Assembly: GCA_902587515.1 (NCBI GenBank)
Contig: CACILM010000005.1
Coordinates: 1-64,000 of the forward strand
DNA from: an uncultured Pelagibacteraceae bacterium
GTDB taxonomy: Bacteria; Pseudomonadota; Alphaproteobacteria; Pelagibacterales; Pelagibacteraceae
Length of the DNA stretch: 64,000 nucleotides
Direction: 5' to 3'
Part shown: positions 14,768-17,541 of the stretch, one piece after another
Numbering within the stretch: position 1 is the stretch's first letter
Layout of the letters: every line of letters starts with the position of its first letter
Position numbers and translations under genes: made by a program
The notes under the pieces: model-generated
Database searches by the model: none
What the model was told of the DNA's origin: nothing
The model's input: only the letters and a program-made list of their open reading frames with translations

Positions 14768-16093
14768 ATGAGAATATTTTTAATTTTAATAATCTCTATA
14801 ATATTTCAAAGTTGCTCATTTGATAATAAATCAGGTATATGGAAAAGAGAGTCTTTCTCAGAGAAAGAGGAAAAAGATGACTTTTCACAATTTGAAGAAC
14901 TTTCTAGTGTTAAAAATACTTTTAATGAAGAAATAATTATCAAAAATGATTTTAAGTTTAGTTTACCTTCCTCATTTAATAACTCTGAGTGGCCTGATAT
15001 TTTTTACAATAAGACAAATAATTCTAAAAATTTTAGCTATAGTGAATTAAATCGTAAATCTTTTAATAGTAAAAAGATATCTAATCAGAAAATAAATGAT
15101 TTTATCTTGTATGATAATGAAAATATAATTTCAACTGACACAAAAGGTAATATAATTGTTTATTCATTAACTTACAAAAAAAAAATTTTAAACTTTAATT
15201 TTTATAAAAAAAAGTTCAAAAAAAATATTAAAAAACTTAATATTATCGTAAATGAAAAAATTATATATGTATCTGATAATTTAGGTTATCTTTATTCGCT
15301 TGATTATAATGACAACAAAGTTTTATGGGCAAAAAATTTTAAAATACCATTTAGATCAAATATTAAAATATTTGAAGATAAATTAATTTTATCAAATCAA
15401 AATAATCAAATTTTTTATGTAGATAAAAATAATGGTAATATTTTAAAATTAATTCCAACTGAAGAAACAACTGTAAAAAATAAATTTATAAATAATATTT
15501 CTTTGGACAACGATTCAACCTTTTTCTTAAACACTTTCGGATCTTTATACTCTATTGACAACAAAAGAATGCAAATAAACTGGTTTATAAATTTAAATCA
15601 AACTACAAATGTCGATCCAAGTAATTTATTTTTAGGAAATACATTAGTGAAAACACAAGATAAAATTGTTGTAACCACTAATCATTTTACTTATGTCTTA
15701 GATAGCAATACAGGAACAATACTCTTCAAAAAAAATTTTTCTTCATTTATTAAACCATTAATAATAAGTAAATATTTATTTTTAATCACTAAAAATGACT
15801 TACTCGTCGCTTTAGATTTGAATTCTGGTCAAATTATTTACTCTCATAATATTAATAATAAAATCTCAAAATTTATTAATACAAAAAGACGAAAAGCTGA
15901 ATTTAAAAATATTTATATGATAAATAGTAAATTATTTATATTTTTGAAAAATTCTTATGTAATAGTTTTTAATACTAATGGAAATATTGAAAAAATTGTA
16001 AAATTGCCCTCTAAAATTAACTCTCAACCGATATTTATAAATGACTATATTATTTTTATTGACAGTAGAAAAAGAGTTTTCATTGTTAATTAA
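14768..16093 (+). CDS. bamB: BamB-like outer-membrane assembly lipoprotein (PQQ-type beta-propeller)
   Basis: The N-terminus is a lipoprotein signal ending in the lipobox FQSC (lipidated Cys16). The remaining roughly 425 residues contain repeated beta-propeller blades with PQQ-like signatures such as 'YVSDNLGYLYSLDYNDNKVLWAKNF' (shortened sense: blade ending in W-x-N/F) and 'VLDSNTGTILFKKNF'. BamB is a scaffold of the BAM complex that inserts outer-membrane beta-barrels. The start follows AAAAAGGTG, a good ribosome-binding site. In many proteobacteria der follows bamB, but here purF converges on it with a four-base TTAA overlap. Confidence 0.82.
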   Translation: MRIFLILIISIIFQSCSFDNKSGIWKRESFSEKEEKDDFSQFEELSSVKNTFNEEIIIKNDFKFSLPSSFNNSEWPDIFYNKTNNSKNFSYSELNRKSFNSKKISNQKINDFILYDNENIISTDTKGNIIVYSLTYKKKILNFNFYKKKFKKNIKKLNIIVNEKIIYVSDNLGYLYSLDYNDNKVLWAKNFKIPFRSNIKIFEDKLILSNQNNQIFYVDKNNGNILKLIPTEETTVKNKFINNISLDNDSTFFLNTFGSLYSIDNKRMQINWFINLNQTTNVDPSNLFLGNTLVKTQDKIVVTTNHFTYVLDSNTGTILFKKNFSSFIKPLIISKYLFLITKNDLLVALDLNSGQIIYSHNINNKISKFINTKRRKAEFKNIYMINSKLFIFLKNSYVIVFNTNGNIEKIVKLPSKINSQPIFINDYIIFIDSRKRVFIVN

Positions 16094-17541
16094 CTGTTAG
16101 ATTTTCCGCTCAAAAGAGAAAGTTGTTTTACTTTCAAACCTTCTAAATTATCTGATGGTTTAACTGGATAGTCTCCAGTGAAATAATGATCACTAAATTG
16201 AGGATATACTATATTTCTCTTTTCTCCAATTAAAGCTTTATATAATCCATCCAAACTTAAAAATTTTAAACTTTTTGCTTTGATGTATTTAGTCATCTCA
16301 GAAATGCATCTGTTATGGGCCAATAACTCTTCTTTAGTGGGCATATCCACCCCATAAAAATCAGGAAATTTAATTTGAGGACAAGCAATTCTTACATGTA
16401 CCTCAGCAGCACCAGCTTCATAAAGCATTTTAACAATTTTATGACAAGTAGTTCCACGAACTAAAGAGTCATCTATCAAAATAATAGATTTATTTTTTAC
16501 AATTGTTTTAGTGGAACTAAGTTTAAGCTTAACTCCTAAACTTCTTATATTTTGTGAAGGTTCAATAAAAGTTCTACCAACGTAATGATTTCTTATTAAT
16601 CCAAGCTCAAATTTTTTATTTGATTGTTCAGCATACCCTAATGCAGCTGGAACTCCCGAGTCAGGCACCGGTACTACCATATCAGCTGAAAGATCGGTTT
16701 CTTTTGCTAGTTCTTTACCAAGATTTTTTCTATATTCATAAGCACACTTACCACTGATAAGACTATCTGGTCTTGCAAAATAAATGTATTCAAAAATACA
16801 TGGCCTAGGTTTTTGTTTAGGAAAAGGCTTTATACTTGAAAGTTTTCCCTTCTCAACTATAACAATTTCACCATTTTCAATTTCTCTAACAAATTCTGCT
16901 CCTATAATGTCTAAAGCGCAAGTTTCAGATGCAAAAATATATGATTTTTTTAACTTTCCAATCACAAGCGGCCTAATACCAAATGGGTCGCGAACCCCTA
17001 CTAATTTTTTGTTTGTCATTAAGATTAAAGAATAACCACCTTGAATTTGAAAAAGAGCCTCAATTAATTTGTCTATAAATTTATCTCTTTTTGATTTTGC
17101 TATCAGCTGCACTATAGTTTCTGTATCGCTGGTAGTTCTAAAAATAGCTCCATCTTTTACCAAACTTTCTCTTAGATAAAGTGCATTAGTTAAATTTCCG
17201 TTATGTGCTAGGCTTAATCCTCCCATGTGTAAATCAGCAAAAAAAGGCTGTATATTTCTCAATGATGTTTCACCTGTTGTGGAATATCTATTGTGACCAA
17301 CAGCAAATTCTCCTGGAAGTTTTTTTAAAGTTTCTGGATCTGTAAAGTGATCACCTACAAGACCTTGCCTCTTTTCTGAGTGATAATTTGTTCCATCAAA
17401 TGAAACTATACCACAACCCTCTTGTCCTCTATGTTGCAGAGCATGAAGTCCTAGAGCTACTAAAGCAGAGGCATCTTCGTGATTGGAAATACCAAATACT
17501 CCACATTCTTCATTAAGTTTATCCAGACTAGATTTTTTCAA
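16090..17541 (-). CDS. purF: Amidophosphoribosyltransferase without Fe-S ligands
   Basis: PurF makes phosphoribosylamine from PRPP and glutamine, the first step of purine synthesis. Cys13 after an 11-12 residue propeptide (EE/CGVFGI) would be the glutaminase nucleophile after processing, and the PRPP loop 'ILIDDSLVRGTT' is intact (about 354-365). In the [4Fe-4S] PurF type of Bacillus, four cysteines bind the cluster. Here only the first is kept (Cys248 in PCIFEYIYF); the second is Asp394 (FPDFYG) and the C-terminal pair region before FTGDYP (about 446-453) has no cysteine. The enzyme thus looks like a former Fe-S type that lost the cluster. It overlaps cvpA by 14 bp. Confidence 0.96.
   Translation of the reverse strand: MKKSSLDKLNEECGVFGISNHEDASALVALGLHALQHRGQEGCGIVSFDGTNYHSEKRQGLVGDHFTDPETLKKLPGEFAVGHNRYSTTGETSLRNIQPFFADLHMGGLSLAHNGNLTNALYLRESLVKDGAIFRTTSDTETIVQLIAKSKRDKFIDKLIEALFQIQGGYSLILMTNKKLVGVRDPFGIRPLVIGKLKKSYIFASETCALDIIGAEFVREIENGEIVIVEKGKLSSIKPFPKQKPRPCIFEYIYFARPDSLISGKCAYEYRKNLGKELAKETDLSADMVVPVPDSGVPAALGYAEQSNKKFELGLIRNHYVGRTFIEPSQNIRSLGVKLKLSSTKTIVKNKSIILIDDSLVRGTTCHKIVKMLYEAGAAEVHVRIACPQIKFPDFYGVDMPTKEELLAHNRCISEMTKYIKAKSLKFLSLDGLYKALIGEKRNIVYPQFSDHYFTGDYPVKPSDNLEGLKVKQLSLLSGKSNS

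Follow-up and report, generated by a model that had tools for sequence, protein, structure and literature searches.

Two classes of amidophosphoribosyltransferase (PurF) are distinguished in PMC7056826, a study on the structure of the Arabidopsis enzyme, one with a propeptide and an Fe-S centre, as in Bacillus subtilis, and the other with neither, as in Escherichia coli. For the human enzyme PPAT, PMC13421311 describes 4Fe-4S clusters and an absence of density for the propeptide, which was read as the mature form. Here we describe a PurF encoded in a 64,000-nucleotide stretch of DNA from an uncultured Pelagibacteraceae bacterium (hereafter the window). It falls outside both classes, because one defining feature of each is lacking: it does not have the four Cys ligands of the [4Fe-4S] enzymes, its residues being C-D-S-Y, and it has a propeptide of 12 residues, which sets it apart from the E. 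coli type.

The PurF of the window and its ligand positions

The purF gene (16090..17541, minus strand) starts with TTG, codes for 483 residues and overlaps the end of a cvpA-like gene (Colicin_V, PF02674; 17528..18100, minus strand) located directly upstream, which is preceded in turn by an MMPL-family gene and dnaB. The TTG start triplet recurs in the upstream DNA at 11 of 13 loci, the exceptions being L036 and L037. The product scored 482.9 bits against the TIGR01134 purF model (cut-off 350), and it is the single match above the cut-off in its 1.05-Mb assembly, with two more below (108.8 and 19 bits). In an 85-row alignment, the nucleophile C13 and residues D357, D358, S359, V361, R362, G363 and T365 of the PRPP loop DDSxVRGxT are invariant. 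By its family score, nucleophile Cys and PRPP loop, the window protein is PurF, and its sequence suggests a working enzyme with normal activity.

As the earlier note had described, the protein has a propeptide, the catalytic Cys13 and an FTGDYP tail. The propeptide (residues 1-12; 17506..17541, minus strand), recognized from the sequence and modelled with pLDDT <50 over residues 1-11, ends in Glu-Glu just before Cys13 (17503..17505, minus strand). The latter is the mature N-terminal nucleophile and aligns with Cys1 of 1GPH. Glu-Glu precedes the catalytic Cys in 106 of the 123 rows of the window's clade type defined below. By analogy with the known enzymes, the propeptide of the window PurF would be cleaved, here without a cluster.

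We take positions 236, 382, 437 and 440 of mature B. subtilis PurF to be the ligands of its [4Fe-4S] cluster. All four are Cys in 1GPH, and they align with Cys248 (16798..16800), Asp394 (16360..16362), Ser450 (16192..16194) and Tyr453 (16183..16185, all on the minus strand) of the window protein; below, four-letter codes such as CDSY give the residues at these window positions. The alignment thus bears out that three ligand positions are not Cys. The segment before the FTGDYP motif (16165..16182, minus strand) is devoid of Cys as well, since the tail, from F449 through S450, D451, H452 and Y453, reads FSDHYFTGDYP. The same four residues, C-D-S-Y, were found in all 15 other genomes of the genus with a match (18 searched), and C-D-T-C in 12 of 12 loci of a neighbouring family of the same order.

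Position 394 is Asp in 122 of the 123 clade-type rows and Cys in all 128 four-Cys rows. In the clade-type rows, position 450 is most often Thr (98/123) and position 453 Cys (91/123). Ser450 and Tyr453 occur together in 21 rows, namely the window, the 15 genus loci and five named Pelagibacteraceae loci. His452 (16186..16188, minus strand) is the signature of the cluster-free type, as it is found in 123/123 clade-type and 0/128 four-Cys rows. The adjacent Asp451 (16189..16191, minus strand) is no replacement residue, because it is conserved on both sides (123/123 clade-type and 125/128 four-Cys rows). The idea that Cys248 is a relic ligand did not survive the comparison, since this position is also Cys in 19 of 20 rows of the E. 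coli type, which is cluster-free. The window PurF has Cys residues at positions 13, 43, 208, 248, 266, 366, 387 and 412, and no conserved replacement among them was found. Cys387, seven residues before Asp394, was rejected as a replacement ligand, being Cys in 40 of the 123 clade-type rows.

An AlphaFold model of the window PurF (85 aligned rows) had a mean pLDDT of 90.5 and a pTM of 0.89, with an average of 97 for residues 441-460 and values below 50 for segments 1-11, 321-329 and 476-483. Its top structural matches, 1ao0 (Z 47.4, rmsd 2.5, 44% identity), 6lbp (46.9) and 1gph (46.3), are all four-Cys enzymes, and E. coli PurF (1ecb) ranks next with a Z of 44.4. By sequence, the solved structure nearest to the window protein is that of Arabidopsis GPRAT2 (6LBP; 458.5 bits), a [4Fe-4S] enzyme with all four Cys. 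The cluster-free propeptide type is not represented among the 13 PDB entries matched by sequence. The window protein resembles the B. subtilis type (1GPH, 1AO0) in its fold, its catalytic Cys after a propeptide, a C-x-x-E-Y-I-Y-F segment and the FTGxYP tail, but it differs by its three non-Cys ligand positions out of four and by His452 instead of Ala or Gly. With the E. coli type (1ECB and kin; no propeptide, no cluster) it shares an incomplete ligand set, Cys248 and the same family model. However, a branch with SH-aLRT 100 separates the window from the 20 E. coli-type rows, which have no propeptide (E. coli purF, L308, begins with Met-Cys). The states of these 20 rows are C-N-D/E-V/C within the 337 rows of the final set, with Asn394 in 19/20, Ser452 in 18/20, and Val or Cys at position 453.

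Spread and ancestry of the ligand states

The ligand columns were read in an alignment of the window PurF and those of 277 loci (278 sequences) with B. subtilis and Arabidopsis PurF. In a later set, all four positions were present in 302 of 307 rows, representing 296 distinct mature sequences, and the final set, which includes a second phylum, comprises 337 rows, with repeats (L297 = L119, L311 = L078 and near-identical genus loci) and two typed rows counted. The four-position counts exclude the truncated rows L227-L230 (alphaproteobacterial) and L337 and L344 (second phylum), as well as L306, which has a gap at ligand 1. The main states among the 337 rows are CCCC (156), CDTC (99), CDSY (21) and CDTY (15), others being rare. 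These pooled counts are not frequencies, as the class-sample genomes that were read (135 of the 217 with a PurF match) were picked by score, family and pattern. The tail pattern D-H-[C/Y]-F-[T/S]-G-x-Y-P was detected in 35 of the 289 genomes of the even class sample itself (217 with a PurF match). These 35 belong to 18 families, CCTC and CCTY families included, and the reversed pattern was detected in none of the 289. Among the best 80 of 582 relatives, 79 named loci have His452, Asp394 and no third Cys, and thus no Cys at ligands 2 and 3; the exception is a four-Cys Rhodospirillales MAG (L106). Record titles in this loss group include Bosea thiooxidans, Methylobacterium, Methylosinus, Rhodoplanes elegans and Filomicrobium insigne.

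His452 is present in 138 of the 296 distinct rows, i.e. 134 with the states of the window's clade and four CCTY rows. It was found in 134/134 distinct clade-state rows and in 0/134 four-Cys rows, where Ala (130) or Gly (4) takes its place. All 39 distinct Tyr453 rows carry His452 and 35 of them carry Asp394, and the Asp-His pair thus outlasts the tail Cys. The 138 His452 rows have no residue other than Cys or Tyr at position 453, Cys or Asp at 248, and Asp or Cys at 394.

A few rows stand apart. L225 (DDTC) and L152 (DCEV), both with Asp at position 248, look propeptide-less, with Met directly before the catalytic Cys, and L295 (DDTC) retains its propeptide. L306, from a Fusobacterium vincentii record, is a PurF homologue with Met-Gly at the catalytic Cys site and a single Cys among the ligand positions; it might be ammonia-dependent or a paralogue. 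Two genomes that share a genus code differ in their PurF: L281 (G273) is of the SAR11-like CDTY kind, 80.8% identical to L036, and L222 (G059) is a divergent four-Cys protein, a mismatch that may reflect either transfer or bin contamination.

For phylogeny, rows were thinned by identity, a careful tree was built without the four ligand columns and column 452, and the long branches L226 and L222 were left out of the careful and last trees. The 38 rows whose states begin with CD or are DDTC or CCTC all group in a single clade of their own (100/100), nested among four-Cys alphaproteobacterial PurFs; this clade received a support of 99 in the quick trees. The nearest rows outside it all have four Cys (L122, L139, L144 and L111 in the last tree; L122, L165 and L198 in the quick tree), which argues that the window-type PurF lost the ligands. 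That the close outgroup keeps all four Cys had been set beforehand as the test of the Fe-S ancestry claimed in the earlier note, and this ancestry is upheld by the nested position of the window (100/100). Across the Alphaproteobacteria surveyed, the trees support the view that ligands 2 and 3 had already been lost by the ancestor of a large clade, with Hyphomicrobiales, SAR11, SAR116 and more as members. On the careful tree, we counted at least five changes between four-Cys and lost states, six changes at position 453 within the clade, and three each at 394 and 248; these counts carry no direction. Scattered losses outside the clade were found in L158 (CYCP), L143 (CYSC) and L152 (DCEV).

One small family informs the order of loss. 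The CCTC rows of family f87 (L136, L283 and L284; three distinct rows from three genera) have Cys at positions 248, 394 and 453 together with Thr450 and His452, and in the last tree they are sister to all Asp394 rows (96/80). They may thus represent a three-Cys-plus-His stage, and they look like a living intermediate. Because f87 has His452 and still Cys394, the most parsimonious order would be Cys450 to Thr along with Ala452 to His, then Cys394 to Asp, and finally Cys453 to Tyr more than once, as Tyr453 is found on several branches within the clade, in Pelagibacteraceae and elsewhere. This order hangs on one short branch (96/80), which the quick tree leaves unresolved, and Cys394 may have been regained. 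The CCTY rows (L220, L286 and L287 of family f10, and L221 of f60; four distinct) have a TDHY tail with His452 and Tyr453, and they retain Cys394. They were placed outside the clade in the quick trees, and uniting them with the clade was not rejected (p-AU 0.131). Their tail may have been gained separately or transferred, or the rows may be misplaced. Since L220, L286 and L221 have His452 outside the clade, this residue alone does not define it.

From these sequences, we propose that the window's clade is a third PurF type, in which the propeptide is retained, the ligand set is gone and His452 is new; the window protein belongs to it by its His452 and its place in the alphaproteobacterial clade. 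We found neither ligand loss in alphaproteobacterial PurF nor such a third type described in the literature searched, which covered few subscription journals, and earlier notice is possible.

Putatively cluster-free purF genes in a second phylum

The D-H tail was also detected in eight of 30 genomes of a second phylum, whose name rests on the title of the L078 record, Candidatus Dadabacteria. These eight genomes measure 0.8-1.0 Mb, against 1.1-3.3 Mb for the remaining 22 (rounded sizes). Each of the 30 genomes has one PurF match at E <= 1e-40, with states CDTC in eight, CCCC in 20 and truncated sequences in two (one ending before ligand 3 and one before ligand 2). The CDTC loci (L311, L338-L343 and L345, in genomes G450, G479, G469, G467, G480, G462, G463 and G481) code for PurFs 74-80% identical to L030, from a family of the window's order. 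In the last tree, the eight group together (100/100) and nest beside L030 (100/95), and the native four-Cys rows of the phylum (eight of 20 used) form a separate clade.

The gene order rpoB-rpoC-valS-purF-purL is common to G463 and G467, with CDTC PurFs, and to G474, with a CCCC PurF. Compared with the PurL of G467, that of G464, which adjoins a four-Cys PurF, is 73% identical, those of five further four-Cys genomes from this phylum are 53-55% identical, and those of nine genomes from the window's order 49-51%. Similarly, RpoC is 68-69% identical to its counterparts in four four-Cys genomes versus 55-58% for seven genomes of the window's order (near-full matches), and rpoB and valS show 61% and 44% identity, respectively, to those of G474, these two being compared within the second phylum only. 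Since the order of the locus is kept, the neighbours purL and rpoC side with their own phylum and purF nests in the window's order, the sequences indicate that a native four-Cys purF was replaced at its own locus by a cluster-free purF from that order, most simply in a single event. Misbinning was rejected: each genome has a single PurF, the three contigs inspected are 132,682, 191,080 and 153,498 bases long, and PurL and RpoC are nearer to those of their own phylum than to those of the window's order. An apparent transfer into Verrucomicrobia (L058, in a record titled as a Verrucomicrobiales MAG) was discarded, as that genome has a second PurF (L309) with an FCMACYDG tail; L058, on a 10,818-base contig, is likely contamination.

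What may have taken the place of the cluster

In B. subtilis PurF, ligands 2 and 4 bind the same cluster, and Asp394 and His452 are thus expected to be close together. We consider it likely that the window protein is a working PurF from propeptide-[4Fe-4S] stock that has kept its propeptide, has no cluster and has its tail pinned by side chains. The ancestral cluster would have anchored the C-terminal tail to the phosphoribosyltransferase domain at two of its segments, and this anchoring would now be provided by side chains, most likely by Asp394, at the old ligand 2, with His452, beside the old ligand 4. Such an Asp-His contact would clamp the tail onto the phosphoribosyltransferase core in place of the cluster; we infer both this contact and the absence of iron from the sequences. 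The near-invariance of Asp394 and His452, the nested position in the tree and the confidently modelled tail are consistent with this mechanism. Nevertheless, the CCTC and CCTY rows (three and four distinct, respectively) have His452 without Asp394, and the restriction of position 453 to Cys or Tyr in His452 rows would not be predicted if that residue were a mere filler.

The latter restriction could be accounted for if the site was changed rather than emptied, with a single ion of zinc or iron bound by Cys or Asp248, Asp394, His452 and Cys or Tyr453, or, in the CCTC family, with three Cys plus His still carrying an Fe-S cluster. The residues allowed at positions 453, 248 and 394 in the 138 His452 rows can all bind metals, and the E. 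coli type, with Asn394, Ser452 and Val or Cys453, indicates that filling the site alone permits other residues. However, position 453 switches between Cys and Tyr six times within the clade, and among the E. coli-type rows, too, Cys is seen at 248 and at 453, so we regard a metal site as unlikely. A fuller scenario, in which the [4Fe-4S] site became another metal site through the three-Cys-plus-His stage of f87 and the enzyme was then passed between phyla in the plankton, replacing an iron-sulfur PurF gene in place, seems to us slightly more doubtful. Neutral decay of a cluster that was dispensable in these hosts and drifted away would fit the at least five changes between four-Cys and lost states and the scattered losses outside the clade, in L158, L143, L152 and the CCTY rows. 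Yet drift would not predict the near-constant Asp394 and His452 seen throughout a deep clade, and L158, L143 and L152 are without both residues, which makes this explanation improbable. An alignment or assembly artefact is very hard to credit, given that these residues recur in 15 further genomes from the genus and that the reading frames are open, with no stops.

The earlier note had suggested that scarcity of iron in the surface ocean favoured the loss. The cluster-free type does occur in all 16 genomes of the window's genus with PurF, and it was acquired by second-phylum genomes of 0.8-1.0 Mb, displacing a four-Cys PurF. However, ligands 2 and 3 were lost before SAR11 arose, and many other bacteria living in soil and water, land bacteria included, have lost them as well; Bosea thiooxidans, Methylobacterium, Filomicrobium, Rhodoplanes and others are on record with this loss. 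Tyr453 is also found in Sinorhizobium (bean nodule) and Shinella (L298 and L299; placed by alignment alone, in no tree), and 17 of the 35 D-H-tail genomes of the even class sample exceed 2 Mb. We thus rejected an ocean-specific loss, and iron scarcity is a poor candidate for its cause. The word purF is absent from a study on iron limitation of Pelagibacter (PMC2864753), and none of five PurF terms is present in PMC8003979. A benefit to plankton once the type existed, through iron, oxygen or something else, is compatible with the data. The transfer into small genomes agrees with a benefit of this kind without showing iron to be its reason.

The Alphaproteobacteria would thus harbour a large third group of PurFs, with a propeptide but without the ligand set, including a family that resembles a living intermediate. 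Its gene swapped for a four-Cys gene in another phylum amounts to a natural experiment. Such a third type would make it possible to test the role of the structural cluster, and whether processing of the propeptide needs it.
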